This document shows, one piece after another, positions 1 through 16,200 of a DNA stretch of 26,824 nucleotides (positions are counted from its first letter, which is position 1; the number at the start of each line of letters is the position of its first letter). The notes under the pieces were generated by a model that saw nothing but the letters and a program-made list of their open reading frames with translations, made no database searches and was not told the DNA's origin. This DNA is from a virus: the IMG/VR virus record IMGVR_UViG_3300042509_002657, positions 1 to 26,824 of that record. One strand, written 5' to 3'. The position numbers and the translations under genes were made by a program.

Positions 1-1
1 T

Positions 2-94
2 AAGGGTGAGAGGTACAACCTCCTCTCTATTCCTTCCCGTGAGAAGTGTTTTGAAAGTGCTGATGCTTTTGGTGGTTATCTGTACGCACGATGA
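2..94 (+). CDS. C-terminal end of a hypothetical protein (5' truncated)
   Basis: An open frame enters from the left edge and runs for 30 codons to a TGA at 92-94. The visible tail ends in FGGYLYAR. The stop overlaps the next start in an ATGA arrangement (ATG 91-93), which suggests translational coupling and supports this frame as a real gene end. Too little is visible to name a family. Confidence 0.6.
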   Translation, partial: KGERYNLLSIPSREKCFESADAFGGYLYAR

Positions 95-354
95 CTTACT
101 CTAACCTTTCAAAGATTCGTCCGAAACTGAGAACATCAGGTAATGTAACAGGTAACTTCGGCCGCCCAAAATCAAAAGCAGGTTCATCACTGAATGAGAT
201 TGGAATGAGTACTAAAGAAAGCATTAAATGTGCTACACAGGATGAGTATCTGAATCGTCTTTATTCTGCATTTGATAATACTGATGATGCAAAGTTAAAA
301 AAGTTTCTGTATCAAGAGATTCGTAAGATTCTTATCACACAAGGAAAGTGGTGA
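91..354 (+). CDS. Small hypothetical protein, 87 aa
   Basis: An 87-residue ORF whose ATG overlaps the stop of the upstream frame by four bases. The N-terminal half is basic and rich in Ser, Gly, Lys and Arg (for example NFGRPKSKAGSS). The C-terminal half is likely helical, with alternating charge (YLNRLYSAFDNTDD, then LKKFLYQEIRKIL). There is no signal peptide or membrane segment. It is followed after four bases by the first, degenerate copy of the 31-base repeat. I do not recognise the family; an accessory early phage protein is the likely category. Confidence 0.7.
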   Translation: MTYSNLSKIRPKLRTSGNVTGNFGRPKSKAGSSLNEIGMSTKESIKCATQDEYLNRLYSAFDNTDDAKLKKFLYQEIRKILITQGKW

Positions 355-358
355 GAAA

Positions 359-389
359 TAGTGGGCCCTGTAAAATGTTCTAGTAGTAT
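359..389 (+). repeat. 31-base intergenic repeat, copy 1 (divergent)
   Basis: This copy aligns without gaps to copies 2-6, with 23 of 31 positions matching the consensus. GTGGGCCC and TAGTAGTAT are kept. The left arm reads AGTGG and the right arm CTAGT, so the ACTGG/CCAGT pairing is partly lost. It begins four bases after the stop of the 91-354 gene, and its last two bases are the AT of the next gene's ATG. Confidence 0.75.
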
Positions 390-636
390 GAACAACACTA
401 CCGACCGCAAGTTTCACAACATCTCTCTTGAAGATCGTGAAATGTTTGCTTACAACAACTATCAAGAGCGTAAGAAACAGCAACTCGCTGCAGTTGCACC
501 TGAACTGCGTATCAAATACTGCTTCGAGTTTCTGAAAGGTTACGTCGCTGAAGGTGATACTGAGATGGCAAAGCGTTGCTATGATGGTATTGCTAAGTAC
601 AGCGAAGTTCTTGACTATTCCGAAGCACACTTCTGA
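388..636 (+). CDS. Small hypothetical protein, 82 aa
   Basis: The start is placed at ATG 388 (MNNTTDRKFHN). The frame can be opened earlier from a GTG at 361, but that stretch is the intergenic repeat and would not be coding. No Shine-Dalgarno sequence precedes the ATG. The protein is soluble, mixed-charge and probably helical in the middle (YQERKKQQLAAVAPELRIKY), with a short C-terminal segment rich in Ala, Lys and Tyr. It heads a three-gene cassette with the two small genes downstream. The family is unrecognised. Confidence 0.7.
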   Translation: MNNTTDRKFHNISLEDREMFAYNNYQERKKQQLAAVAPELRIKYCFEFLKGYVAEGDTEMAKRCYDGIAKYSEVLDYSEAHF

Positions 637-642
637 TTCACA

Positions 643-735
643 ATGACTGGTGGCATTATCTTCCTGATCGCTTATGCAATGGGCGCAGGACATGTTTTTC
701 TGATTCGTTATCTCTCACGTAAAGGTATTATTTGA
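643..735 (+). CDS. Mini membrane protein, 30 aa (paralogue of 3883-3972)
   Basis: A 30-residue ORF six bases after the preceding stop. It starts MTGGIIFLIAYAMGAGHVF and ends in a basic tail (RYLSRKGII). Residues 5-21 form one hydrophobic, probably transmembrane, segment, with the positive charges after it. The peptide matches the product of 3883-3972 over most of its length, sharing a TGG-x-IFL-x2-YA-x-GAGHV-x-LI pattern. A second copy in another repeat-delimited cassette is strong evidence that this very short ORF is translated. A role in host membrane modification would be a guess. Confidence 0.65.
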   Translation: MTGGIIFLIAYAMGAGHVFLIRYLSRKGII

Positions 736-737
736 TT

Positions 738-881
738 ATGAAATACGAAGTCACTTTATACGTTTCTGGACGTAACTTCAAGGACATTGTAATTGCTAAT
801 TCACCAACAGATGCAAGAGTTACAGCTGAAGCACGCAATCCTACAGCACGTGTTGTAGCAGTCAACGGAACGTTTAAGTAA
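738..881 (+). CDS. Small conserved-looking phage protein, 47 aa
   Basis: The ORF starts two bases after the previous stop and begins MKYEVTLYVSGRNFKD. A beta-rich N-terminus is followed by a helix-like stretch and a final strand (ARNPTARVVAVNG). The layout resembles short cyanophage hypothetical proteins with an ARNP-x-AR-V-x-VN ending that I recall; no function is known to me. The stop codon TAA shares two bases with the start of repeat copy 2. Confidence 0.7.
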   Translation: MKYEVTLYVSGRNFKDIVIANSPTDARVTAEARNPTARVVAVNGTFK

Positions 882-910
882 CTGGGCCCCCGAAACTGTA
901 CCAGTAGTAA
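880..910 (+). repeat. 31-base intergenic repeat, copy 2
   Basis: This copy differs from consensus at three positions (T12C, G17C, T31A). The ACTGG arm (881-885) and the CCAGT arm (901-905) are perfect and could form a 5-bp stem around GGGCCC. It overlaps the upstream stop codon. A 16-base CA-rich leader without a Shine-Dalgarno sequence follows before ATG 927. Confidence 0.9.
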
Positions 911-926
911 CACCACACATCAAACC

Positions 927-1124
927 ATGAACTACTACAAAATCACTGAAATTGACTTTGACTTTGACGGTGAAGATATCACTCAAGAAGAGATTGATAC
1001 TATCGTCACTGAAACAAAAGGTTGCCTCTGGACTTCACCAACTGAAGAAGATCTATCAGACATCATCTCAAATAACACTGGTTGGTGCATTAACTCTCTG
1101 TCCTATGATGTGATTGCTGCCTGA
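927..1124 (+). CDS. Small acidic hypothetical protein, 65 aa
   Basis: A strongly acidic 65-residue protein. The N-terminal part has the run DFDFDGEDITQEEIDTI and the middle has SPTEEDLSDII. It contains two cysteines and no membrane segment. The start follows repeat copy 2 and a CA-rich leader. Its TGA overlaps the next ATG by one base (TGATG), so the next gene is probably translated by reinitiation. Acidic mini-proteins of phages often bind host proteins or mimic DNA, but nothing here shows that directly. Confidence 0.75.
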   Translation: MNYYKITEIDFDFDGEDITQEEIDTIVTETKGCLWTSPTEEDLSDIISNNTGWCINSLSYDVIAA

Positions 1125-1264
1125 TGATTGAAACTGATTTCTTTATTCTCACTGGCGAACAATACCAGCAATTCAATTCTGAAGCATCAGAACTTGGTTT
1201 AAGTATTGATTATTATCTCAGTGAGTTTTGTGATGTCGAAGGACCAGACATCTACATTGATTAA
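1124..1264 (+). CDS. Small acidic hypothetical protein, 46 aa
   Basis: A short ORF whose ATG shares one base with the stop of the upstream gene. It begins MIETDFFILTGEQYQQF and ends VEGPDIYID. It is acidic and aromatic-rich, with no membrane segment. Its stop codon abuts repeat copy 3 with no gap. The tight packing on both sides supports it as a real gene. The family is unknown to me. Confidence 0.65.
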   Translation: MIETDFFILTGEQYQQFNSEASELGLSIDYYLSEFCDVEGPDIYID

Positions 1265-1295
1265 AACTGGGCCCCTGAAACTGTACCAGTAGTAT
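1265..1295 (+). repeat. 31-base intergenic repeat, copy 3
   Basis: One difference from consensus (G17C, shared with copy 2). ACTGG (1266-1270) and CCAGT (1286-1290) pair perfectly. It starts on the base directly after the upstream TAA and is followed by a 20-base CA-rich leader before ATG 1316. Confidence 0.92.
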
Positions 1296-1315
1296 CACCA
1301 CTCACCACTGAAACC

Positions 1316-1630
1316 ATGAGAACCATCGAACGCCAAATGAACCAAGCAATCCAACAGGAAAAGGATTGGAAAAAGGATAATACTGAGGTTATCAATTGCA
1401 CTCATGTAAGCGATGTTTATCTTCACAACAATCTCATTGCTCGCATTGGTGAAACCTGGTTAGAGTTGTTCGATGGGGGATACCAAACCGCAACAACTAA
1501 ATCCCGTCTCAACTCAATCCTCCAAGCCCATGGTAATGGAGAGCGTATCTTCTCCAAGAACTTTGAATGGTTCATTGTAACTGATAATGGCGAAACTGTT
1601 CCCTTCTTCTCCGGTATGCGCCTGAACTGA
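1316..1630 (+). CDS. Phage hypothetical protein, 104 aa
   Basis: The protein starts MRTIERQMNQAIQQEKDWKK. It has a central block with VYLHNNLIARIG and LFDGGYQTATTKSRLNSIL, then a C-terminal part with IFSKNFEWFIV and VPFFSGM. From memory this pattern (hydrophobic strand, FDGG-x-Q, TTKSRLN, F-x-K-N-x-x-W) belongs to a small protein family seen in many phages and of unknown function. It appears full length. It opens the longest cassette, five genes up to the terminator at 2246. The next ATG follows its stop with no gap. Confidence 0.8.
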   Translation: MRTIERQMNQAIQQEKDWKKDNTEVINCTHVSDVYLHNNLIARIGETWLELFDGGYQTATTKSRLNSILQAHGNGERIFSKNFEWFIVTDNGETVPFFSGMRLN

Positions 1631-1690
1631 ATGTTGTTTAATCTAGTTCTGTTCTCATCTCTCATTGTCCGCTATCACTTTCACCACTGA
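1631..1690 (+). CDS. Possible mini-ORF, 19 aa, hydrophobic
   Basis: A 19-codon ORF starting on the base after the upstream stop (TGA then ATG). It begins MLFNLVLFSSLIV and ends YHFHH. Its TGA overlaps the next ATG by one base. Position in an otherwise unbroken chain of touching or overlapping frames is the only support. The hydrophobic stretch is short for a membrane span. It may serve only to keep ribosomes moving to the next gene. Confidence 0.35.
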   Translation: MLFNLVLFSSLIVRYHFHH

Positions 1691-1842
1691 TGATTGAACT
1701 CCTCATCTCTTCAACTATCATCGGTCAAAGTATCATTGGACCTAATCTTCTTCGGACTGATTATCTCACTGACCAAAATCAAATCATCACGATTCAAGAG
1801 ACAATCACAGAATTCCCAGAAGACCAACCGTGTAACCTATGA
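1690..1842 (+). CDS. Small hypothetical protein, 50 aa
   Basis: A 50-residue ORF with an Ile/Ser-rich N-terminus (MIELLISSTIIGQSIIG) and a polar, acidic C-terminus (ETITEFPEDQPCNL). The N-terminal segment could be a weak membrane anchor. Its start overlaps the previous stop by one base, and its stop overlaps the next start by four (ATGA). The family is unknown. Confidence 0.55.
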   Translation: MIELLISSTIIGQSIIGPNLLRTDYLTDQNQIITIQETITEFPEDQPCNL

Positions 1843-1964
1843 CTAAGTTCCTCATGGGCACAATTACTGGAATCATTCTTTCAACAGTAGGATTCCAAGG
1901 GTTAGCAAACCTAGGTAATCGTACAATCACAACCATCGAATCATTCGCTCAATCACAACAATGA
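1839..1964 (+). CDS. Small protein with N-terminal hydrophobic segment, 41 aa
   Basis: It begins MTKFLMGTITGIILSTVGF, a lysine followed by a glycine-rich hydrophobic stretch that could be a membrane anchor or signal-like segment. The rest is polar (NRTITTIESFAQSQQ). It overlaps the genes on both sides by four bases (ATGA each time), a typical translational coupling layout. No family is recognised. Confidence 0.55.
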   Translation: MTKFLMGTITGIILSTVGFQGLANLGNRTITTIESFAQSQQ

Positions 1965-2149
1965 ACAACAACCAAAAGGATTCAATGCTTGCTATTATCC
2001 TAGAGCAAGTTCAACAACAAATCGTTAATCTAGTAGAGCAAGATCTAATTGAAGAGTCTTACTCCTTATACAAAGAATGGGAAGAACATTTCAACAATAA
2101 TATCACTGAACTAGAAATCATTACTATCAACGACCTCACCACTATCTGA
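1961..2149 (+). CDS. Small hypothetical helical protein, 62 aa
   Basis: Last gene of the cassette. It begins MNNNQKDSMLAIILEQVQ and is rich in Glu, Gln, Ile and Leu with a heptad-like hydrophobic spacing through about residue 45, which suggests a coiled coil or helical hairpin. It is acidic overall. Its ATG overlaps the upstream TGA by four bases. About 95 bases of non-coding sequence and the terminator at 2246 follow. Confidence 0.65.
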   Translation: MNNNQKDSMLAIILEQVQQQIVNLVEQDLIEESYSLYKEWEEHFNNNITELEIITINDLTTI

Positions 2150-2245
2150 TAGTAACAAGAGGAAGGGAGTTTGCCTCATCTAAGTAAACAAAGTGACTTC
2201 CATAGAGTGTAGATAATCAAGGTTATTTGGTGATGTGGTTTATAG

Positions 2246-2274
2246 GCAGAGGACTGGTAATCCTCTGCTTTTTT
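2246..2274 (+). terminator. Intrinsic terminator of the first small-gene array
   Basis: A perfect 8-bp stem, GCAGAGGA (2246-2253) with TCCTCTGC (2261-2268), encloses a 7-base loop and is followed directly by six T (2269-2274). It ends plus-strand transcription of the upstream mini-genes just before the 3' end of the convergent endonuclease gene. The T-run lies only on the plus-strand side. Confidence 0.88.
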
Positions 2275-3079
2275 ATTGCTTATAATACCAATAACAACCC
2301 ATCCAACTATACTTACCAGGATTTTTAAGAGAAGAAATTAACCCTGTTCCACGTTTGCCTCTTAGAGTTAATGATGCTTTATTTGCACTATCAAACTCAT
2401 AAACAAGCTCGCCTGTTTTCTTATCGTATCCAACAACAGGTCTAACAATAGGTCTATTATCAAGTCGTTTCCATTTATATCCGTATGCTCCAATTCCATC
2501 TCTTATTGCTCTACTAATGTTTCCAGATCCACCTTTTAACCCTAACTCTTTTTTTGCAGATGCTATACTATCAAATTCAATAACTTCACCAGTTGTTATA
2601 TTTGTACCTTGAACTTTTCTCTTAGCATGTGTTCCTCCTTCATTTTTAGAGAGAAAGAATCCCCATTTTTCTCCACGTTCTAATTTGTTCTTAAGACCGA
2701 TACTTACATTACTTACCCATTCATCAGAACGTAAAACATTACTCATAGACTGTGATATTTTATCTCTTACATCTTCTCTTATGTTCTTATTACTCTCTCC
2801 ACCTGTTGTAGCATTATAACCACGATTATAGGAATTAAAGTGTTCTATCCAGTAGATTTCTCTTTCACTGAGTTTATCTTCTGTTGTCTCTTCTAGAACC
2901 TTAACGTTAAAGTTATCCAATCCATATTTGTTCATTGCTCTATACAATGGACGTTCAGAAAAGGTCTTACTTTCCTGAATATGTGCTAACCAACGCTTAT
3001 TCAAAGGCATCACAGTCTGTCCAACGTACTTATTACCATTGACCTTATTTTCGATTAAGTAGATTGTACCTTGACGCAT
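2273..3079 (-). CDS. GIY-YIG homing endonuclease, free-standing, 268 aa
   Basis: The N-terminal ~90 residues are a GIY-YIG nuclease domain: TIYLIENKVNGNKYVG supplies the GIY and YIG elements, an Arg follows in NKRW, and a conserved Glu lies in EREIYWIEHF, before GYNATTGG. The C-terminal half holds two copies of a NUMOD/IENR-like DNA-binding module (around TGEVIEFDSIASAKKEL and TGELVYEFDSANKASL), each ending in an aromatic/basic strand. This matches T4 Seg-type mobile endonucleases that cut a site and spread by repair. The frame opens upstream at a TTG (3103), but ATG 3079 puts the start right at the nuclease fold. It is the only minus-strand gene here and converges on the array terminator. 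Confidence 0.88.
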   Translation of the reverse strand: MRQGTIYLIENKVNGNKYVGQTVMPLNKRWLAHIQESKTFSERPLYRAMNKYGLDNFNVKVLEETTEDKLSEREIYWIEHFNSYNRGYNATTGGESNKNIREDVRDKISQSMSNVLRSDEWVSNVSIGLKNKLERGEKWGFFLSKNEGGTHAKRKVQGTNITTGEVIEFDSIASAKKELGLKGGSGNISRAIRDGIGAYGYKWKRLDNRPIVRPVVGYDKKTGELVYEFDSANKASLTLRGKRGTGLISSLKNPGKYSWMGCYWYYKQ

Positions 3080-3111
3080 TTTGATTGATAAGTTGCTAGA
3101 CAATTTGATGG

Positions 3112-3119
3112 TATTTATG
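3112..3119 (-). promoter_or_regulatory. T4-type late promoter motif for the endonuclease
   Basis: On the minus strand this reads CATAAATA, matching the NATAAATA form of the T4 late promoter (TATAAATA). It lies 32 bases upstream of the ATG at 3079 in the right orientation. This suggests the endonuclease is expressed late by the phage-modified polymerase. The call rests on motif match and position only. Confidence 0.5.
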
Positions 3120-3152
3120 ATAACTTACTCTCTTTTCTTAAGTTGTTCACAA

Positions 3153-3171
3153 TTTCCACAACCTGTGGAAA
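3153..3171. repeat. Perfect 8-bp inverted repeat
   Basis: TTTCCACA (3153-3160) and TGTGGAAA (3164-3171) are perfect complements separated by ACC. No T-run follows on either strand, so it is not a terminator. It lies just upstream of the minus-strand endonuclease promoter. The halves resemble degenerate DnaA boxes (TGTGGATAA) but miss the consensus. An operator-like protein site or a small hairpin is possible. Confidence 0.55.
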
Positions 3172-3427
3172 ACCTTTATAAAAATAGCTGTGTGTGAAGT
3201 ATTATAAGTAATAGGTTTATCTTTATATCTCTTAGAGTCGTTATCTTTGCTTGCGAGCTTAGACGAACTCGCCCGAAATGTCAAGACCCCCCATAAGACT
3301 TTACCGGACACATAAGTTCTCACACGTCAACCCCCACTTTCCCGGAATATCATAAAATCCCCACACAACTCCCAGAATACTCTGAGACCCCTCTAAAATC
3401 GCCCACAAGGACACTAAATACCAACAC
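3172..3427. other. Non-coding stretch with C-rich, G-poor tract
   Basis: No convincing gene is visible. A small GCGAG/CTCGC hairpin lies at 3253-3272. From about 3281 to 3425 the plus strand is rich in C and A and poor in G, with several runs of four or more C. A plus-strand CTAAATA late-type motif lies at 3414-3420, just upstream of the sigma-70 promoter, so the 3489 gene may have both an early and a late promoter. Confidence 0.5.
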
Positions 3428-3456
3428 TTGACAGATACTCCCAGATCCCTTATAAT
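3428..3456 (+). promoter_or_regulatory. Perfect sigma-70 promoter
   Basis: TTGACA (3428-3433) and TATAAT (3451-3456) match both consensus hexamers exactly with a 17-base spacer. Transcription should start near 3463, giving a leader of about 26 bases that contains AAGGAGA (3476-3482) before ATG 3489. The host RNA polymerase would recognise it without phage factors, so the gene is probably expressed immediately on infection. Confidence 0.92.
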
Positions 3457-3488
3457 TGCCTCATACAACACATTCAAGGAGAACACTT

Positions 3489-3662
3489 ATGTCAGTTGCC
3501 TACAGTCAAGCACAGAAGCAGCGTTATCGTATTACCCTTGACATCTCAGCATATCCTGATTTCGACCCGCACAACATCAACTGGAATAAGTTATTTGAAC
3601 TCGAAGGATCTGAGAACTGTGAGGCTTATGTGGAAGACCTAAGTCGTCCTGATAAGTGGTGA
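3489..3662 (+). CDS. Small early protein, 57 aa, in its own transcription unit
   Basis: The protein begins MSVAYSQAQKQRYRITLDI and continues with an acidic, aromatic C-terminal part (NINWNKLFELEGSE, then YVEDLSRPDKW). The start is ATG 3489 because AAGGAGA sits six bases upstream. The alternative in-frame TTG at 3456 lies in the promoter's -10 box, so it would not be transcribed. It resembles a short cyanophage family I recall (YRITLDI, then NINW, then ELEG) without known function. A strong promoter, an intrinsic terminator and a good ribosome site imply high early expression. Confidence 0.85.
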   Translation: MSVAYSQAQKQRYRITLDISAYPDFDPHNINWNKLFELEGSENCEAYVEDLSRPDKW

Positions 3663-3690
3663 CATAAGAGCATACAATAAGACTCCTTAA

Positions 3691-3715
3691 GAGACTCCTC
3701 TATGGGGTCTTTTTT
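3691..3715 (+). terminator. Intrinsic terminator after the 3489 gene
   Basis: AGACTCC (3692-3698) pairs with GGGGTCT (3704-3710), seven pairs including one G-U, around the loop TCTAT, and is followed by five T (3711-3715). A second AAGACTCC at 3679-3686 could pair with the same right arm, giving an alternative longer fold. It closes the one-gene unit just before the next promoter. Confidence 0.85.
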
Positions 3716-3721
3716 AATGAC

Positions 3722-3750
3722 TTGACATACCTTACTGTATCGTGTACAAT
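3722..3750 (+). promoter_or_regulatory. Strong sigma-70 promoter for the second small-gene array
   Basis: TTGACA (3722-3727), a 17-base spacer and TACAAT (3745-3750) match the sigma-70 consensus at 11 of 12 hexamer positions. Transcription should start near 3757. The roughly 75-base leader before repeat copy 4 contains a possible hairpin, AATCAC (3807-3812) with GTGATT (3824-3829). It probably drives the genes from 3883 to 5015 early in infection. Confidence 0.88.
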
Positions 3751-3830
3751 GTCCTTGTGGAGGATGAAAAGCAATAAGGTAGCTTAACATAGAGCCACCG
3801 TTAGGTAATCACGAACGTAGTGAGTGATTG

Positions 3831-3861
3831 AATTGGGCCCCTGAAAGTGTACCAGTAGTAT
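3831..3861 (+). repeat. 31-base intergenic repeat, copy 4
   Basis: One difference from consensus (C3T), which turns the left arm into ATTGG. It can still pair with CCAGT through a G-U pair. It is the only copy with no gene directly upstream; it sits instead in the leader of the promoter at 3722-3750. A 21-base A/C-rich leader follows before ATG 3883. Confidence 0.92.
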
Positions 3862-3882
3862 AAGGACCACTGAAAACCACTC

Positions 3883-3972
3883 ATGATCACAGGCGGCGTA
3901 ATCTTCCTTCTCTCTTATGCTCTCGGTGCTGGACATGTTCTTCTCATTCAGCGCCTGAACCGTAAGTACTGA
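3883..3972 (+). CDS. Mini membrane protein, 29 aa (paralogue of 643-735)
   Basis: The peptide begins MITGGVIFLLSYALGAGHVL and ends in a basic tail (IQRLNRKY). One hydrophobic segment spans about residues 6-21, with a GAGHV motif at its end. Aligned with the 643-735 product, most positions are identical or conservative, including TGG, IFL, YA, GAGHV and the basic tail. The start follows repeat copy 4 and an A/C-rich leader without a Shine-Dalgarno sequence. As the first gene after the 3722 promoter it is probably expressed early. Its function is unknown; insertion in the cyanobacterial membrane is the natural inference. Confidence 0.7.
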   Translation: MITGGVIFLLSYALGAGHVLLIQRLNRKY

Positions 3973-4004
3973 GAACTCTTCACCCTCTAAGTATCAGTTA
4001 ACTC

Positions 4005-4190
4005 ATGATGGTTAGTGTCACTGAGACCCGCCCATTCTTCGTTGAGCAAGCAAAGTCGGGAAGATGGAATGTATGGGTCTTTCAGAGAGAAACTGAAAGC
4101 GGTTACAAGTATTCTGTTAAGCAAACATTGAAGAACCCCGATGATGCTTACTCATGGGGACTACAGTATATCAACACTGTCGTAAGGTAA
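4005..4190 (+). CDS. Small hypothetical protein, 61 aa
   Basis: The protein begins MMVSVTETRPFFVEQAKSG, with WNVWVFQRE and a C-terminal helix-like stretch (NPDDAYSWGLQYIN). It looks like a compact alpha/beta fold with no membrane segment. ATG 4008 is an equally possible start. A 32-base gap separates it from the mini membrane protein, with which it shares a cassette. Its TAA is three bases before repeat copy 5. I recall similar short cyanophage proteins but no function. Confidence 0.72.
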   Translation: MMVSVTETRPFFVEQAKSGRWNVWVFQRETESGYKYSVKQTLKNPDDAYSWGLQYINTVVR

Positions 4191-4193
4191 GTT

Positions 4194-4224
4194 AACTGGG
4201 CCCCTGAAAGTGTACCAGTAGTAT
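4194..4224 (+). repeat. 31-base intergenic repeat, copy 5 (consensus)
   Basis: Identical to the consensus and to copy 6. ACTGG (4195-4199) pairs with CCAGT (4215-4219). It begins three bases after the upstream TAA. Its last two bases are part of an ATG (4223), but the homologous leader pattern points to the second ATG at 4244 as the real start. Confidence 0.94.
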
Positions 4225-4243
4225 GACCACCACTACCAAACCA

Positions 4244-4492
4244 ATGACTAACACTCTCCAAGCAAAAGTACAGGACACCACCTATAACGGTTGGACCAAT
4301 TATGAGACCTGGAATGTTGCACTCTGGATCAACAATGATGAGGGTCTGTATAACATTGCCAATGAGTGCAGTTGCTATCAGGAATTCATTGATAATATCA
4401 GTGAGTTTATGACACAAACTCCTGATGGTGTTAAGTTCAATGACCCCGCTGTAAATGTCATCGAACTGAATAGCGAAGTGTTCGACTTCTGA
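4244..4492 (+). CDS. DUF7249-like small phage protein, 82 aa
   Basis: The core YNGWTNYETWNVALWINND is the signature of a small phage protein family I recall as DUF7249, of unknown function. A helical part follows (GLYNIANECSCYQEF), then an acidic C-terminus. The frame also opens at ATG 4223, which overlaps the repeat and would add MTTTTKP. I prefer 4244: the 19 bases between the repeat end and this ATG match the CA-rich leaders after the other copies, whose starts lie 16-21 bases away. It forms a one-gene cassette. Confidence 0.8.
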   Translation: MTNTLQAKVQDTTYNGWTNYETWNVALWINNDEGLYNIANECSCYQEFIDNISEFMTQTPDGVKFNDPAVNVIELNSEVFDF

Positions 4493-4496
4493 TATT

Positions 4497-4527
4497 AACT
4501 GGGCCCCTGAAAGTGTACCAGTAGTAT
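4497..4527 (+). repeat. 31-base intergenic repeat, copy 6 (consensus)
   Basis: Identical to copy 5, including the preceding TT. It begins four bases after the upstream TGA. It is followed by a 33-base leader, longer than the others, before ATG 4561. The leader contains CACACAGT, which recurs twice more downstream. Confidence 0.94.
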
Positions 4528-4560
4528 AAGGGACACACAGTTCTCATCACTCCAAATCTC

Positions 4561-4761
4561 ATGTTCAAAAACGTCATCAATCAGGTCCGCACTTTTGGTT
4601 ACACGATGAAGAATCCGATGCCCCGCAAAATCTTCTTCCTGCGGAACTTTGCTCCCCAACGTTATACTGAGTTCAAAGACCTGATGAATACTCTGAACAC
4701 ACAGTTTCATCAAGGTCTTATCAATGAGGAGCAAATGGATTCGGCACTCCTTGCCTTCTGA
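4561..4761 (+). CDS. Small basic/aromatic hypothetical protein, 66 aa
   Basis: The protein begins MFKNVINQVRTFGYTMKN. Residues 20-35 are rich in Arg, Lys and Phe (PRKIFFLRNFAPQRY), and a helical C-terminus follows (GLINEEQMDSALLAF). It has no clear membrane span. It follows repeat copy 6 and a CA-rich leader and has no Shine-Dalgarno sequence. The family is not recognised. Confidence 0.7.
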   Translation: MFKNVINQVRTFGYTMKNPMPRKIFFLRNFAPQRYTEFKDLMNTLNTQFHQGLINEEQMDSALLAF

Positions 4762-4874
4762 TTGTAGTTCTTCATTCACACATAAGACACACACAGTAAG
4801 CATCACACATGGGAATAAGTGCGCCCTATAAAGACACTTACTTCACACACAGTTACTAACACACAACAACACAA
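4762..4874 (+). promoter_or_regulatory. CA-rich intergenic leader with weak promoter-like motif
   Basis: The 113-base gap is rich in CACAC. TATAAAGA (4827-4834) is one base from the T4 late box TATAAATA. It lies in the loop of an inverted repeat, TAAGTG (4816-4821) with CACTTA (4835-4840). Either could control the 46-residue gene at 4875. The evidence is weak. Confidence 0.3.
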
Positions 4875-5015
4875 ATGTCTAAGCAAGTTCTCATCTCCAT
4901 GCTCGCACAAGGTAACAACGGAAACGACATTCTTTCGATTCTTGATGTTATTGTGTCTGAGCAATCTTCTGAGTCTGATGATAACGGTCCGACTTTGAAT
5001 ACGATTGAGTTCTGA
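4875..5015 (+). CDS. Small conserved-looking phage protein, 46 aa
   Basis: The protein begins MSKQVLISMLAQGNNGND, then has a short Ile/Leu helix (ILSILDVIV) and an acidic Ser/Asp tail (SEQSSESDD) ending TLNTIEF. The pattern of a Leu-rich helix, a GN-x-G turn, a second helix and a polar tail matches a short cyanophage hypothetical protein I recall. No Shine-Dalgarno sequence is present; the leader is A/C-rich (AACACACAACAACACAA). A stem-loop follows nine bases after its stop. Confidence 0.72.
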   Translation: MSKQVLISMLAQGNNGNDILSILDVIVSEQSSESDDNGPTLNTIEF

Positions 5016-5023
5016 TACCTTAG

Positions 5024-5050
5024 GGGCGCAGGGTTTGACACTCTGTGCCC
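5024..5050 (+). terminator. Stem-loop after the second array, possible weak terminator
   Basis: GGGCGCAG (5024-5031) pairs with CTGTGCCC (5043-5050), eight pairs with one G-U, and an 11-base loop. It starts nine bases after a stop codon, where a terminator is expected, but the sequence after it (TCTTATGTT) is only modestly T-rich. It could instead be an RNA processing or stability element. The loop contains TTGACA (5035-5040), which could also be a -35 box. Confidence 0.45.
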
Positions 5051-5071
5051 TCTTATGTTAGGATGGACAGT

Positions 5072-5185
5072 ATGCGTGAAACGGCAGTGATTGGTGCCGG
5101 TTTCTTATGGTGCCGCGGGGGCGTAGCGTGTTTAAGGCGCCCCCCCGTATATAAAAAAGCAAACTACCCTAACCTACAGAGGTGA
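5072..5185 (+). CDS. Mini-protein, 37 aa, Cys/Arg-rich
   Basis: The ORF reads MRETAVIGAGFLWCRGG, then VACLRRPPVYKKANYP. A hydrophobic N-terminal half (residues 4-13) is followed by a basic, proline-containing tail, and two Cys lie nine residues apart. The start at 5072 is chosen because AGGA (5060-5063) sits eight bases upstream; an in-frame ATG at 5063 would add three residues. It looks like a real peptide of a kind I recall from cyanophages. However, a GC-rich hairpin lies inside it, so an RNA function for this stretch cannot be excluded. Confidence 0.55.
   Translation: MRETAVIGAGFLWCRGGVACLRRPPVYKKANYPNLQR
5114..5147 (+). other. GC-rich hairpin inside a mini-ORF
   Basis: GGGGGCG (5117-5123) pairs perfectly with CGCCCCC (5138-5144) around a 14-base loop. 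Two more pairs (5114-5115 with 5146-5147) follow beyond one mismatch. In a region of about 35-40% GC this is the most GC-rich structure in the window. It is followed by TATATAAAAAAG rather than a T-run, so it is not a standard terminator on the plus strand. Confidence 0.6.
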
Positions 5186-5196
5186 CAATTCGACCT

Positions 5197-5203
5197 CTAA
5201 ATA
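5197..5203 (+). promoter_or_regulatory. Late-type promoter motif (CTAAATA)
   Basis: CTAAATA, the same seven bases found before gp25 and gp8. It lies 34 bases upstream of the GTG at 5238 and just after the end of the 5072 gene. It probably starts late transcription of the 5238-6778 block. No -35 element is expected for T4-type late promoters. Confidence 0.5.
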
Positions 5204-5237
5204 TCACATTCATAAAATTTTTCCGGAGTACCAAAAA

Positions 5238-5315
5238 GTGGCAAAATGGATTCATAAGGGTGGATATTCTCGCCCCGATAAGAGAACGGTAAAGAAGGGT
5301 GGTAAGAAGAAGTAG
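5238..5315 (+). CDS. Basic mini-protein, 25 aa
   Basis: A 25-codon ORF with a GTG start and GGAG at 5224-5227 upstream. The product begins VAKWIHKGGYSRPDKRTV and ends in a Lys/Gly tail (KKGGKKK). Nearly half of its residues are Lys or Arg, so it could bind nucleic acid. The late-type motif upstream, the ribosome site and a stop that overlaps the next frame by 17 bases support it. It is too short for a family call. Confidence 0.5.
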   Translation: MAKWIHKGGYSRPDKRTVKKGGKKK

Positions 5316-5445
5316 ACCTTATTGGAATTTCTGGAAGGTAGTCTTTGCAGGATGGTTAATAAGGTATCCACGACAATGCTTTACGATATTCGGAGGCACT
5401 GTTGGATTTCTGATTGTTCTGATATATAATGCGGTAACAAAATGA
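5299..5445 (+). CDS. Small membrane protein, 48 aa
   Basis: A GTG-started ORF overlapping the preceding gene by 17 bases in another frame. It has a basic N-terminus (VRRRSRP), an aromatic segment (YWNFWKVVFAGWLI), a polar turn (RYPRQC), and a hydrophobic segment (FGGTVGFLIVLIYN) ending VTK. This predicts one or two membrane passes with the positive N-terminus inside. It resembles short cyanophage membrane proteins with an RYP turn that I recall. The exact start is uncertain because no clean Shine-Dalgarno sequence precedes the GTG. Confidence 0.55.
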   Translation: MVRRSRPYWNFWKVVFAGWLIRYPRQCFTIFGGTVGFLIVLIYNAVTK

Positions 5446-5478
5446 AAAGTTACTGAAAAATTTCCGGAAAAAATTTTT

Positions 5479-5673
5479 ATGACTGAAAATGTTTATCACA
5501 TTTACGCAAAGGGTCAGTGCATCTATCACAGTTTATCAGAGAGTAGATTCTCTGAGACCTGGGAAATGATTCACCGAATGATTGATCTTCTTGATTTAGA
5601 TCTTACAAAAGAAGATTTGTGTTATGAAGAACTGTGTGTGAATAAGGAAGTAGTACTCAACTCTTCTCATTGA
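5479..5673 (+). CDS. Conserved-looking cyanophage hypothetical protein, 64 aa
   Basis: The protein begins MTENVYHIYAKGQCIYHSL and has a helical middle (SETWEMIHRMIDLLDLDLT), an acidic stretch (KEDLCYEEL) and the tail VVLNSSH. The whole pattern (VYH-x-YAK, C-x-YHSLSE, YEEL, N-x-SS at the end) matches a short family common in T4-like cyanophages as I recall, with no assigned function. It seems full length. An AT-rich leader with TTCCGGAAAAAA precedes the ATG. Confidence 0.8.
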   Translation: MTENVYHIYAKGQCIYHSLSESRFSETWEMIHRMIDLLDLDLTKEDLCYEELCVNKEVVLNSSH

Positions 5674-5722
5674 CAGAAGCATATATAGACTGATAAAATT
5701 GATCTGAAGGTTATTTTCACTT

Positions 5723-6490
5723 ATGGCAAAAGGATTTACAGTTAAAGCAGCATCCCCTAAGGCATCAGAAGCTGATTGGGATTATGATGCTATCAAAGAA
5801 CGAATGAAGGGAAAGAGTATTGTATTCTGTCTACCTGGACGAGGATGCTCTTTTATTTTTCTAAAAGCATTTGTACAACTATGTTTTGATCTTGTACAAA
5901 ATGGAATGAGTATTCAAATTTCTCAAGATTACTCATCTATGGTTAACTTTGCACGTTGTAAAGTATTAGGTGCAAATGTACTTCGTGGACCAAAGCAAAT
6001 TCCTTGGGATGGGAAGTTGCAGTATGATTATCAACTTTGGATTGACTCGGATATTGTCTTCACCACAGAAAAGTTCTGGCAACTCTGTGATCTTGCTCTG
6101 AATGCAGAGGGAGAAGAGAAGGAGATTGTTGCTGGTTGGTATGCCACAGAAGATGGTCACACAACCTCAGTAGCACACTGGTTGGAAGAAGATGACTTCC
6201 GCAAGAACGGTGGTGTGATGAATCATGAGACCGTAGATTCAATCTCTAAGCGTCGCAAACCTTTCACTGTTGATTACACTGGATTTGGTTGGGTACTCAT
6301 CAAGAAGGGAGTCTTTGAGAATCTTGAGTATCCTTGGTTCGCTCCTAAGATGCAAGTCTTTGAGTCTGGTGCAGTACAAGACATGTGTGGCGAAGATGTC
6401 TCATTCTGTCTTGATGCAAAAGAAGAAGGCTTTGATATCTGGTGTGATCCTCGTATTAGAGTTGGTCACGAAAAAACTCGCGTTATCTGA
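5723..6490 (+). CDS. Glycosyltransferase-like protein (GT-A fold), 255 aa
   Basis: Residues 31-60 form a first strand and helix (KSIVFCLPGRGCSFIF). Residues 101-113 read YDYQLWIDSDIVF, where DSD (108-110) fits the metal-binding DxD motif of GT-A glycosyltransferases. Later come GFGWVLIKKGVFENL, then GEDVSFCLDAKEEGF with a candidate catalytic ED, and finally a His in RVGHEK that could bind the metal. This order is typical of family-2-like enzymes, which move a sugar from a nucleotide-sugar to an acceptor. Acceptor and sugar cannot be read from sequence; virion or host-surface modification are options. Its stop overlaps the next ATG by one base. Confidence 0.78.
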   Translation: MAKGFTVKAASPKASEADWDYDAIKERMKGKSIVFCLPGRGCSFIFLKAFVQLCFDLVQNGMSIQISQDYSSMVNFARCKVLGANVLRGPKQIPWDGKLQYDYQLWIDSDIVFTTEKFWQLCDLALNAEGEEKEIVAGWYATEDGHTTSVAHWLEEDDFRKNGGVMNHETVDSISKRRKPFTVDYTGFGWVLIKKGVFENLEYPWFAPKMQVFESGAVQDMCGEDVSFCLDAKEEGFDIWCDPRIRVGHEKTRVI

Positions 6491-10232: not shown

Positions 10233-13200
10233 ATGACAGAGAGCAGAATCAAAATTAGTTCAATTGTTGAAAATCAACTTCCGGATTATGTAAAAGAAGA
10301 ATTTCCGCTAGTTACGGAATTTCTTTCTCAGTACTATCAAGCAATAGAAAATCAAGGAAGTACACTTGATATTCTGCAGAATATTGATCATTATATAAAA
10401 GTTGATAACTTAACTAATTTAATTGATTCTACGCAGACAACATCGAATGTATCTCTGTTTGATGGAACAATTAATGTTGAAAGTACTTTTGGATTTCCAG
10501 ATTCATATGGATTAATTAAGATTGATAATGAGATTATTACTTATAAAAGCAAAACATCCACATCATTTGATGAATGTGTAAGAGGATTTGTTGGAATTGA
10601 AGAATATTTTAATAATGATCAATTGAAATTTTCTGATACAAATGTAGAGTCTCATGTTGAAGATTCTACTGTTGTTAATTTGAGTGTTCTTTTCCTTAAA
10701 GAATTTTTTAATAAAATTAAAATTCAGGTTACTCCTGGATTTGAAAATCGTGCTTTGAGTTCTCAAATAAACGAAGGACTTTTTATTAAACAATCTAAAG
10801 ATTTTTATTCATCAAAAGGAACAGCGCACTCTTTTGAAATTCTTTTTAGAGCTCTATATGGTAAAGACGTTGAAGTTATTCTTCCGCGCGATTTTCTTAT
10901 CCAACCTTCGGATGCTCAGTATAGAATTACTAAAGATCTTGTAGTTGAAGCAATTGAAGGAAATCCTACAGATTTAATAAACTTAACTCTATACCAAGAT
11001 TCAGTTTACGATATTCCTGCATCAAGGGGTACAGTATCTAATGTAGAAAAAATTATTCGTTCAAATAAAGAATATTATGTAATTAGTTTAGATTTTGGAT
11101 ATGGCAATAATGTAAATGATACTGGTCTTGCGCTCGGGAACTTTACGGTACACTCAAAAACAAAAAATATAATTGATATTGTCCCCAGTTCTGATACTAT
11201 CACGGTAGATTCTACGTTAGGTTTTCCATCTTCCGGAAATTTAACAGTAGATCTAGAAAATGGAACTCAATTATTAATTAATTATACATCAAAATCATCA
11301 ACTCAGTTTTATGGTTGTACTGGAATAAATCAGAATGTTCCAAAAAACAGTGAATTAAATTTAGACGCTTTTGCTTATGGATATACTGACGTTGAACAAA
11401 CTAAAATTGCAAAAGTAAGAATTACTGGTGTTCTTTCAAATATAGATTTAGATTCTCCCACCAAATATTACGATAGAGGTGACTTAATAAAGATTGTAAC
11501 TATTGGTAAGCAATCTAATGACTTTAGAGCAAATAAATGGTTATTTAATATTTCTTCAACTCATAATATAAAATCTATAATCGAGTTAGATGCATTAAAC
11601 TTTAGATATAATATTGATCTATATGATCGACATTTTTTCTATATTGGAGATTCAGTTACAATCATATCTCCCCAAGGACAACCTGCATCCGAAATTAGAG
11701 GTGTTGTAAGTGCGGTTAAAAACTCCACTTCTATTACTATTTCTTTAGAGCAAAAATTAAATTCTCTTGTACCTTTCCAAATAAAGAAAAATATAGTAAA
11801 TGTATCATCAAAAAATGACTTAAGTTTGAATAAGTATGTTGCGAATGTTCAAAACACTTATATTGATAGTACAAACTCAGTATACGTAACATCACTTTCT
11901 TTACCATATTATGCAAATAATTCTCTTGATATAAGAGATAAGAAAATAACCTTTTCCGGAACATTTTCCGGAGATTCTCTTACAGTTCCAAATCATAAAT
12001 TTTATACTGGCGATAAAATTGTTTATAACCCAGATCAAAATGAAAATAAACTTGATTTGGGAGCCGGAAAATATTTTGTTCGTAGAATCGATTCTAGCAC
12101 AATAAAGTTAAGTAGAAGTGTCGCAGATCTTTTTAATAATAGGTATTTGAATGTTTCTGGTACTGTAGTTGATAATGTTTTTTATTATGAACCTTTTACT
12201 TTTGAAAATTTAAGTCCAAAGACTGTACTACCTCAAAATTTAATTAGACAAATTCCAATTCCATCAATAACAAATACTCGCTTTATAACTCCCACTGGGT
12301 TTACTGGTATTTTTGTAAATGGTGTTGAACTCTTAAACTATAAATCAAATGATTATGTTTATTATGGACCAATAACATCTATTGATATATTATCTAGAGG
12401 AGGTAATTATGATGTTATTAATCCACCAATAGTACAAATTAGTGATTTGGTAGGATCTGGTGCTACCGCACATTGCACTGTCAGTGGATCATTGGTAAGA
12501 ATTGATGTTATAGATGGTGGAGTAAATTATTTACAAAATCCAGAAATAATCATAACTGGGGGAAATGGTTCTAATGCTAAAGCTATTCCAATTTTAGAAT
12601 CATATGATTATTCGGTTTCTTTTAGTTCTAATCAGTCCGCAGGATATGTGAATTTAATTGATAATACTATTGGATTCTCATCTTTCCATAAACTTAATAA
12701 TGGAGATGAATTAATATATCAAACAAATGAGCAGCAGGGAATTGGTGGAATTACAACCAATTCATCTTATTTTGCCTCAGTAGTTGACGCGAATACTATA
12801 AAATTACATACCAAATTAACTGATGCTTTTGATAGAACTAATCCTGTAAATTTATCTTTACCATATGGTACAGGTGTTCATACATTAAAGTCAAAATTCA
12901 AAAGAAGAAAAATACAATCAATAAATGTAATAAATCCAGGAACTAATTATAGAAATAGAAAATTATTTGTTGGTTCTATTGGTATTAGCACTGCAAATAA
13001 TTCAATCAATATTAATAATCATAATTTTAATAATAAAGATATAGTCACATATCAATCTACCGGCGAAGTAATAAGTGGATTAGACACATCAAAATATTAC
13101 TATGTCGAAAAAATTGATGATAACAATTTTAGATTATTCGATCAGTATACGCTAGATGATAAAAATCAAATAGATTTTTATTATGAGACAAATCAACCAG

Positions 13201-16200
13201 TAAACTTAACAAGTGTTGGTAGTGGTCTTCATATTTTCAGAGATGAACCAATAAGAATTCAAATTATTGGACCTGTTGGAGTAACTACATTTGCAAATCA
13301 AAATTTTGATGCCGAACTTCAACCTATTTTCCGAGGAAGAATTGAGTCTGTATTCTTAGAGGATGGTGGTTCTAACTATGGAACTGAAGAAATCTTTAAT
13401 TATAACCGACAACCTAATATTACACTTAACTCAGGAACTGGTGCTGAGATAAGACCTGTAATTTTGAATGGTTCTATTGTTAATGTTTTTGTTGTAAATC
13501 CGGGAATAGGTTATAATTCTCCCCCAGACATATTCATTGAAAGTCCAACAGGATCTAGTGCTATCTTAGTCCCAATAGTCAATGAAGGACTTTTGGTTGA
13601 AGTTAAAGTTGTATCTGGTGGAATAGGGTACGAACAATCAACAACTACGATGATTGTTTCTTCTGCTGGACAAGAAGCAAAATTTAGCGCAAATATAAAA
13701 TCTTGGCAAGTAAACCTGGTTGAAAGAAATATTATTTCGGGTGAAATAACAAATGATGATGGTATTATTGCAGAATCATTAAACAATAAATTTGAACTTG
13801 AATATTCTCACGGATATGCTCCAAGAAGTCTTAGAAGATCAATACTAGCAGAAAAGTTCACTGACGAGGGAATTATTTACATTCCGGATTTAAATATCCA
13901 AAATGGCAGTGAAACTTTATCGGACGTACATTCCCCTATTATTGGATGGGCATATGATGGAAACCCAATCTATGGCCCCTATGGATACTCAACTGCTTCA
14001 GGTGGAGCAGCAAAACTTTTAAAATCTGGATATTCAATTTCACTGCAAGATAATAGACCAAGTTTAGATCTTTATCCTGAAGGATTTTTTATAGAAGATT
14101 ATCAATATACTGATAATGGTGATTTGGATGAGTCTAATGGAAGATTCTGCGTTACTCCAGAATATCCTACTGGGACATATGCTTATTTTGCAACTATATC
14201 CGAAAATATTGAAACATCAGGAACCTTTGTAAATTATAGAAGACCAATATTCCCATATGCAATTGGTGATTACTATCATTCAAATATTGGTGTAGTTAAT
14301 TTTTCACCGGTCTTAAATCAAGATGATTTTGATCTCAATCAAACTAATTTATTAAGAAATACGACTCCATATTATTTGAATAGTGATAACAGTTTTTATG
14401 AGTATCTAGAAGATCCTAATAAAATTAAAGAGCAAAATTCTAAAGTTATTAATGTATCTTCCGGATCAGTAACATCAATTGATATTATTGATCCTGGCGA
14501 GAATTATAATGTAGGTGATCAAATTTTATTTGATAATGCTGGAACTGGAGGAAGAGGTGCGAAGGCCTATGTCTCTGGCATTCAGGGTAAAAATATTGTA
14601 GGCATTTCAATTACAACACTTCAAGTAGACAATGTTGAATTAATTGGAAATGTTGGAATATCTTCTTCACAATTAAATTTGAAAAACAGAGATTTTCTTA
14701 CTATAACTGGAAAAATTCCAAATCAATTTAGTACAACTCAAAGAATTGAAATAGTTAATAGCACTCTTATTCTTTCTTCTGGAATTGGATCTGCTTTTTA
14801 TACTGGAATAGTGACTTATATGAGCGTTTATCCTCCAATAAATGCTATAGAGAATGATTTATTTTATCTTGGCAATGAAGTAGTTAAAATACTGAATATT
14901 GACAAATTAAATTCCAGGGTCAGAATACTTAGAAATCAGAAAGGAACGACCGGAATATCTTCATATTCTGCTGGATATGCATTAACAGAATCTCCAACAA
15001 AATTTGTTTATAATTCTTCTGGTATTGGTGCTACTTTCTTTGATAATAGAGAATTTTATTTTAATCCAATAGAGTCTGTTGGACTAGGAACTACAAGTGG
15101 AGTTGGAATAGGACTGACACTATATTTTTCAAATCCAGGAGCTGGCGGAACATCAATATTTGTTCCAACGAGAACCATTTATATTCCAGATCATCAAATT
15201 CCTACCGGAACTGAACTTTTATACCGTTCAAATGACGGTAGTCCATTATCAATTTCTACTGATGGCGTTAGTTCATATAATTTGAGTAATAATTCTATAG
15301 TATATTCCGCCAAAATATCTGAAGATCTAATTGGAATTTCTACAGTTCTTGTTTCTTTGGGAAATACTGGAACTTTTGTTGGAGTTGGGTCCACAAATAT
15401 TGGAACTTTACTGTATTTTACTAGTATTGGGTCAGGTGTTAATCATAGCTTAAAATCAAATCCAACCAAAACAGTTAAAGCAGATCTATCAAAAAACACT
15501 GTGAATGTTTCTACTGCGGAAACTCATGGATTGTTTGAAAGAGAAAACATAAAAATAACAGCTTTACCTCAGTTGTCTACAAGTGTATATGTATCTTATA
15601 GTGATTATAATAGAAGACTTTGTATAAACAAACTATCATTTAGTTCTCCAAATGTTGATATTGTTAGCAAAACAATTACAATAAATGATCACAAATTACC
15701 GACTGGGCAGAGTGTTGTATACAGAGAAATCACACCTGTTGGTGGATTAGTTGATAGTAAAATTTATTATGTAATTGAGTACGGAAAAAATTCCATTAAA
15801 CTTGCGGAGTCACTTTATGATATATCAATTAATAAAGTTGTAAACATAACATCCACCGGTTCTGGTACTATTTCTGCAATAAATCCTCAGATTGTTGTAA
15901 CCAAAAATAATACTATCAATTTTGATTTATCAGACTCGTCATTGGCTTTCAAAAATAATGCTATAGACTACACTGCTTTCGACTTTAATATTTACGAAGA
16001 CGCTCTTCTGAATAAAAAGTTTGACAAAACACCAAATTCATCTACATTTAATGTAATTAAAAACGGAAGAATTGGTATTGACACTACGGCATCAATATCT
16101 TTAATTTTTAATAATGAACTGCCCAATAAACTTTATTATAGATTAGAACCAAAAAAGGATAATCTTTTACCAAGTTCAAAAAAAGAGATTATATTTGATG

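Follow-up and report, generated by a model that had tools for sequence, protein, structure and literature searches.

What does a short non-coding element do when it recurs, nearly unchanged, between the small genes of a phage? The stretch of DNA analysed here (the window; positions 1 to 26,824, 26,824 nucleotides (nt), of IMG/VR virus record IMGVR_UViG_3300042509_002657) belongs, judging by its sequence, to a T4-like cyanophage, and its later part carries baseplate genes in synteny with gp25-gp6-gp7-gp8 of phage S-SM2. An earlier note had pointed to six plus-strand copies of a 31-base element in the two small-gene arrays of the window. We consider it probable that each copy is a T4-like cyanophage promoter/start element read by a protein of the SSM2_065 family, whose C-terminal helix would lie on a box within the element. 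The variable half of the element changes in step with this one protein helix, which suggests a private, matched gene switch in each virus. That the element has a function is strongly supported. Sequence comparison demonstrates its division into box and core, the concerted evolution of its copies, its coupling to start codons, and its co-occurrence and co-variation with the protein.

The six copies lie where the earlier note had placed them. Scanning both strands with the pattern ACTGGGCCCCTGAAAGTGTACCAGTAGTAT at up to 3 mismatches returned five matches, all on the plus strand (copies 2 to 6, at 881-910, 1266-1295, 3832-3861, 4195-4224, and 4498-4527), and none in 100 shuffles. Copy 1 (360-389, plus strand) is diverged, has a AGTGGGCCCTGT box, and differs from the pattern at 7 of 30 positions. 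A looser pattern found no copy beyond these six in the 26,824-base record. The identities reported among the copies also held: copies 5 and 6 are identical, copies 3 and 4 carry one change, and copy 2 carries three. Copies 1, 2, 3, 5, and 6 do adjoin an upstream stop codon. The extent of 31 bases stands in part: the six copies are conserved, and conservation continues beyond base 31 into the start-codon region. The overlap with start codons, the lineage-specific box, and the protein described below had all escaped the earlier note.

Is the element confined to this virus? A motif scan against other phage sequences, the check that the note had suggested, uncovered a large family. The exact GGGCCC-type pattern occurs in 30 stretches and a degenerate version in 93 (80 of the 93 among the matches listed), while a position matrix run on 94 sources (765,727 bases) picked out 351 unique GGGCCC-type contexts, with no score of 5 bits or more in first-order resampled controls. 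Scanning with the common core reached at least 120 stretches. Copies are present in the cultured phages S-SM2 and SynMITS9220M01; S-SM2 carries the homologous repeat AAGGGGGGTCGCCTAAAGCGTCCCTATAGTATGAGCAC 12 times within 42.7-58.5 kb and nowhere else in its 190,789 bases. Four of seven records have one further core match, at 1 mismatch, outside the element block. The strand of the element is uniform within every contig, both for the 351 GGGCCC-type contexts and for the 699 unique copies of the wider family. The near-identity of the copies had been read as a sign of function or recent spread, and this reading gains from the single orientation, from the hundreds of copies in other phage contigs, and from the start-codon coupling and co-varying protein described below. 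Recurrence in many contigs and in two cultured phages speaks against random scatter in coding DNA or an assembly artefact. The exact GGGCCC-type pattern, the only type scanned for spread to hosts, had no match in genome contigs.

Alignment of the 699 unique copies on AAA (positions 13-15) resolves two parts: a box of about 12 nt (positions 1-12; in copy 5, 4195-4206, plus strand, of type TGGGCCCYTG) and, 3' of it, the shared core AAAGTGTcCcTATAGTATgAgCAC (positions 13-36; in copy 5, 4207-4230, plus strand). The box comes in about 16 types, which were set by eye (544 copies typed; the 155 others are mostly near variants). Position 8 is C in all 16 type consensi, and positions 4-7 are the most variable. 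Across 82 contigs with at least four copies each, the mean Hamming distance between boxes is 1.12/11 within contigs and 5.14 between them, whereas core distances are little split (4.16/24 and 5.13); thus it is the box, not the core, that is lineage-specific. Copies within contigs have evidently evolved in concert. Could the element simply be a repeat, selfish or recombination-related, that regulates nothing? Two box types occur within one contig at three loci (L114, L118, and L126), and arrays switch systems on the marker tree described below, as such a repeat might; its coupling to strand, start codon, and protein makes this idea extremely improbable.

Which protein might read the box? SSM2_065 (49,522-50,103 of S-SM2) is the only S-SM2 open reading frame (ORF) in all three of SynMITS9220M01, G019, and G020, and it is absent from the element-less genomes Bellamy, S-SSM7, S-SRM01, and S-SCSM1 (0/4). 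The family is basic, unannotated, and ~190 amino acids (aa) long, with an isoelectric point of about 10.6 in one representative. Searches gave no convincing match in Pfam (best E 0.014, in one of nine), PHROGs (best 0.019, in one of eight), NCBIfam (best 0.066, in one of eight), or the PDB (best 0.68). The gene sits inside the arrays: an element begins 15-54 nt 3' of it in 32 of 66 loci, and one stands 0.26-2.9 kb before it in 35 of 54. Because nearly all of the first 75 protein loci had been fetched via the element, they say nothing about co-occurrence. Among loci fetched by the protein alone, 71 of 77 hold the core, with 224 copies on the strand of the gene and none opposite; at 5 mismatches these become 76 of 77, with 300 versus 16 copies. 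Two of the six core-less loci (L408 and L415) carry diverged repeats. The protein is found in 10 of 15 element-bearing records and in none of four element-less ones; in the five element-bearing records without it (G001, G002, G009, G010, and G015) the array reaches the contig end. By tblastn it was detected in 10 records, including P-TIM68, S-B05, AG-345-E15, AG-345-O18, RN05-S, and RB11-B. Elements missed by the core searches were reached through the protein in P-TIM68 (13), S-B05 (2), AG-345-E15 (3), and G024/L292 (11). Those of the first three are diverged; AG-345-O18 was already known from the element search. G024 joins the protein segment EKKQMVRAGK to 11 GGGCCC elements.

The box follows the C-terminus of this protein and not its N-terminus. 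Partial Mantel correlations on 56 distinct proteins are 0.59 (p 0.0005) for box and C-terminus given the N-terminus, and -0.12 for box and N-terminus given the C-terminus. The pattern persists in the 455 pairs whose N-termini are most alike: greater C-terminal difference goes with a mean box mismatch that climbs from 1.0 to 7.0. When boxes were predicted for 54 other loci, a set biased to S-SM2 relatives and including S-SM2 itself (L375), the nearest C-terminus missed 2.3 of 11 positions, the nearest N-terminus 5.6, and a random choice 5.95. The pairings can be read directly: TGGGCCC boxes go with YTRDEKKkmVRaGK, GGGGGG[AT]CG with ERKAL[YT]KKGER, TTACTCACC with TRAERDK, GGGGCCTT with SRxxRKxITRxG, and [AT]AGCC with ERxKLKRAGDRL. 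S-B05 (GGGMTRKERD) likewise has a TTACTCACC box and AG-345-E15 (YSRAERQK) a CTGAAGC box, and the boxes tied to SSM2_065 and to the SynMITS9220M01 protein are GGGGGGTCGCCT and TTACTCACCTCT. Residues with the highest excess mutual information with box class include S-SM2 residues 150, 151, 154, and 158, about one helix face, and the segment holding residues 150-158 is the best-scored helix of a structure model (predicted local distance difference test, pLDDT, about 82-92). That model has one confident C-terminal helix in an otherwise disordered chain (mean pLDDT 64, predicted template modelling score 0.22), an architecture that would suit major-groove reading.

Beyond the bias of the 54 test loci, several points weigh against such a reader-promoter pair. 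The sequences are related, so the counts are not independent. Excess mutual information also occurs outside the helix (for example, S-SM2 residues 47, 53, and 138-142). The window itself has no SSM2_065-family gene, and a basic helix could bind RNA. Finally, positions 23-28 offer a fair -10, TATAGT, at T4-middle spacing; the start it implies, near 35, would come after an ATG at 29-31.

How would the element work? Positions 1-12 would be the recognition box, read by the C-terminal helix of the SSM2_065-family protein, and positions 13-36 a common core where transcription would start and from which the 5' end of the mRNA would come, often start codon included. The element would work as a promoter, at the DNA level; with the protein guiding host RNA polymerase, the likely transcribing enzyme, to the boxes, the small-gene arrays would be switched on one after another. 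The mRNAs probably begin inside the element, perhaps near 24-29, which would leave the copies with an internal ATG leaderless or with very short leaders. The reader may be delivered with the DNA: its N-terminus, MKTFxxFxxEA, resembles MKSFFQFLSEA of T4-GC190 and, we presume, the capsid-targeting sequence of T4 internal proteins, and virion delivery is possible for this reason. In a fuller version, which we hold only tentatively, this is a modular recognition code in which a packaged, injected, disordered protein recruits host RNA polymerase to private promoters with its C-terminal helix on the box. Box positions 4-7, before the unvarying C8, would then change together with helix residues, each lineage would have a specificity of its own for its early small genes, and arrays could be traded whole, along with their reader. 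The T4-GC190 protein was detected in the S-SM1 virion, according to PMC3037559.

Where does the message begin? Positions 29-31 read ATG in 378 of the 699 copies, GTG in 10, ATA in 83, and GTA in 204, so that the 321 copies without ATG mostly have GTA or ATA. The element ATG opens the downstream gene in frame in 363 of 378 copies; no other frame is longer than its own in 363, and at least 30 codons stay open in 361. G31 occurs almost only together with A29 (Fisher p about 2e-89, the rows being related), which argues that ATG is selected at 29-31. No alternative in-frame start lies within 12 codons in 153 of the 378, or within 25 codons in 76. In phages that lack the element, the orthologous genes begin either at the second in-frame ATG or precisely at the element ATG (MKNTHLQHPED); annotated S-SM2 genes at L100 3885, 15563, and 16497 also begin at the element ATG. 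At L038, L045, and L116 the ancestral ATG is now an ATT/ATA-type codon and the element ATG remains. In copies without an internal ATG, the start of the first long ORF falls mostly at 44-53 (mode 47, median 50). Of the 699 copies, 22 have a terminator-like hairpin in the 60 nt upstream; of 2097 random windows, 16 do (Fisher p 1.4e-5, the copies being related). For 17 of the 19 distinct intrinsic-terminator hairpins, only 11-18 nt separate the end of the U-run from position 1, too few to fit another promoter. At five loci (L003, L046, L106, L170, and L172), a copy with such a hairpin precedes an MKN... gene with no other nearby start codon.

These data bear on two alternatives. The first is that the element acts at the RNA level, in transcripts from upstream promoters on which a protein or nuclease would act gene by gene in mRNA processing or translation initiation. 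The start-codon overlap and the G31-A29 coupling show that positions 29-31 are visible to ribosomes, the sequence downstream, rich in A/C and poor in G, is suited to translation, and copy 4 lies 80 nt downstream of a sigma70-like TTGACA-17-TACAAT (3722-3750), as read from the sequence. We nevertheless regard this alternative as doubtful, given the terminators just upstream of some copies, five of them without another nearby start codon, and the lack of a stable or conserved fold. Folding of the element was no better than that of shuffled sequence (the element scored z -0.52, three contexts 0.83 to 1.34), and Rfam 15 gave only sub-threshold matches in window 1-6000, none at any copy. A candidate hairpin, ACTGG...CCAGT, is weak, and its 3' half varies while its 5' half does not. 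An antisense guide RNA in S-SM2 is rejected because the S-SM2 genome holds no complement of its box within 3 mismatches.

The second alternative is a T4-middle-like promoter, with a sigma70 -10 at 23-28, a start near 35, the box in place of the MotA box, and ATG 29-31 serving read-through transcripts only. Here the geometry is good: box to -10 spacing is 11-13 bp, and MotA boxes have 12 +/- 1 (PMC2988021); there is a C34-A35 step; S-SRM01 sigma70 cassettes, TATAAT-AAGCACA and TATACTGTAAGCATCAACAC, resemble TATAGTGTAAGCACAAC; and T4 itself relies on read-through as well as on middle promoters (same paper). The window's own type, however, has AGTAGT at 23-28, and this alternative must contend with the many ATG copies lacking another in-frame start and with the three loci that keep the element ATG after losing the ancestral one. 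Leaders would also be shorter than at the sigma70 promoters of the same phages. Among 256 sigma70-like matches within 60 nt before a long ORF (eight whole genomes and one partial), ATG falls 20-26 nt past the -10 in 96, versus 11 of 93 for a scrambled pattern; matched onto the element, this leader length would place the start near positions 27-31. ATG 29-31 is in use despite the -10; either the start lies upstream of 29, where there is no ordinary -10, or these genes are read from longer transcripts. We infer that a start near 24-29 fits most of the evidence (start codon and terminators), while one near 35 fits the T4-middle -10 geometry, and we think the T4-middle-like promoter unlikely.

What known systems come closest? 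The nearest descriptions are MotA boxes, start-associated sequences (SAS/ESAS), and stoperators. T4 middle promoters, activated by MotA with AsiA, likewise have a phage-specific box above a common -10-like core, many copies, a phage-encoded reader (here a candidate), and a place at early/middle genes of a T4-like phage. They differ in that the box here has about 16 types with matching protein variants, the core reaches the start codon, and the reader is unrelated by any family search. None of the 16 box consensi matches the MotA box consensus TGCTTtA. T4-like cyanophages are not known to carry MotA or AsiA; the S-SM2 annotation names neither, and no search aimed at them was made. SAS/ESAS of cluster K mycobacteriophages are likewise short repeats, all in one orientation, that occur where non-structural genes start; the part next to them has a subcluster-specific consensus, like the lineage box, and their authors propose a DNA-binding protein and a possible promoter role (PMC3203893). 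ESAS, in contrast, consists of two 17-bp inverted repeats, and SAS holds a Shine-Dalgarno-like AGGAG (same source); hosts and sequence differ, and a candidate reader is identified here. The 13-bp SAS consensus at start codons, GGGATAGGAGCCC, differs from the element consensus.

Cluster A mycobacteriophage stoperators are reported to be asymmetric, oriented intergenic sites that co-evolve with a phage protein. Are the copies operator- or stoperator-like sites at which the protein blocks transcription? Their single orientation, intergenic position, lineage specificity, and cognate protein would fit. Stoperators, however, are repressor sites that stop elongation, whereas the core here is initiation-like, conserved across box types, and overlaps start codons; relatives have promoters in its place, and these phages are lytic and T4-like. 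We judge this explanation very unlikely. Promoter-early-stem-loop (PeSL) cassettes are repeated regulatory cassettes between small genes of T4-type phages, and PeSL-like stem-loop and sigma70-like repeats occupy the same genome region in S-SSM7, Bellamy, DSL-LC02, S-SRM01, and S-SCSM1. Unlike these, the element has neither a stem-loop nor a TTGACA-like -35, and a terminator adjoins only those 22 copies. We know of no lineage-matched reader for the intergenic repeats of halovirus HF2. These repeats were shown to carry promoters, and they differ from the element in coming from an archaeal virus and in their AT-rich motifs (PMC8707807). The element bears what we take to be a likeness to the SP6 promoter AGGTGACACTATAG; single-subunit RNA polymerase (PF00940) was found in none of seven records at E 0.1, and control genomes were equally silent. 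The earlier note knew of no described element with this sequence, and none turned up in the open-access literature, subscription papers lying outside its reach. Text searches with core strings returned primers and the like, with no cyanophage item among the matches listed. The open-access literature searched likewise yielded no description of the SSM2_065-family protein; a subscription-only start-site map for a cyanophage may exist.

How did the arrays come to differ among relatives? The core is absent within 1 mismatch from the whole records of S-SSM7, Bellamy, S-SRM01, S-SCSM1, and DSL-LC02 (0/5); there, several genes that the element serves in other phages are instead preceded by stem-loops and sigma70-like sequences. 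A tree of a neighbouring conserved gene covered 30 loci (17 with the element by a loose count, 13 with another cassette; 9 left unlabelled). It needs 5 label changes, 3 of them forced by well-supported branches, against a shuffled mean of 10.0; therefore the element is clustered yet was gained or lost several times, the two kinds of array interchanging at least 3 to 5 times. Close relatives can also have different box types (L350 GGGCCC, L352 TAGCTCACC). L292 and L352 have diverged cores and count as element loci only under the looser pattern.

Early/middle control of small genes in T4-like cyanophages is poorly known, and the element and its candidate reader now give it a concrete form, testable in cultured S-SM2, SynMITS9220M01, and P-TIM68. 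The roughly 16 matched pairs of protein and DNA form a ready-made data set from which a recognition code could be worked out, and they would supply a family of mutually independent promoters and factors for cyanobacteria. Gene annotation calls for caution, since in-frame element ATGs lengthen gene-call N-termini (MSTKP-MQNKHLEHPED, for example).

Within the window, the internal ATG of copy 1 (388-390, element positions 29-31, plus strand) opens ORF 388-636 (MNNTTDRKF...) in frame, and that of copy 5 (4223-4225, positions 29-31, plus strand) opens ORF 4223-4492 (DUF7249, PF23907), whose second in-frame ATG is at 4244. Copies 2, 3, and 4 have no internal ATG and precede a gene start at 927 (65 aa), a gene start at 1316 (Kyano_Gp96, PF23790), and a 29-aa ORF at 3883-3972, respectively; the gene start after copy 6 is at 4561 (66 aa). 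The 13 P-TIM68 copies (L371, between 22042 and 31012) have a diverged core; in those looked at, it holds an ATG at positions 27-29 that is followed immediately by TAA or opens a 6-codon ORF whose TGA overlaps the ATG of the gene. One gene often served by the element encodes a DUF6267 protein (L100 14640-15545 and orthologs) with a KxDG-like motif, VKIDGAPAI, which presumably recalls nucleotidyltransferase ligases.

Each array of the window holds one of two similar membrane-like proteins of 29-30 aa, MTGGIIFLIAYAMGAGHVFLIRYLSRKGII and MITGGVIFLLSYALGAGHVLLIQRLNRKY (643-735 and 3883-3972, plus strand). Between the arrays stands a free-standing GIY-YIG/NUMOD homing endonuclease gene (2273-3103, minus strand), adjoining a hairpin-plus-T-run seen by eye at about 2246-2275. 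A near-perfect sigma70-like promoter, TTGACA-17-TATAAT, was noted by eye at 3428-3456 (plus strand). The similarly near-perfect one at 3722-3750 (plus strand) lies directly 3' of a terminator-like hairpin (about 3692-3716), with a possible 7-codon ORF, MKSNKVA (3764-3787, by eye), 3' of it. At the gp7 position there is a single ORF of 4008 codons (10233-22259, plus strand). In relatives (L205, L203, L099, L207, and L206), repeated cassettes form GTGCCAGT...ACTGGCAC stem-loops and carry CCCTATAATAAGTACATAACAAAC in S-SSM7 and GTATTATTAAAGAGTCAAAGG in Bellamy, DSL-LC02, and S-SCSM1. L303 and L295 have a further repeat, CCCCTATACTGATCTCAGTTC, ahead of small genes, which may be a third kind of promoter. 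Tandem repeats of 69-72 nt (CATTCGTGATTAGATAAGATTCGTATAG) lie upstream of a glycosyltransferase-like marker gene at L346 3988-4254, L327 1890-2151, and L324 3512-3761.

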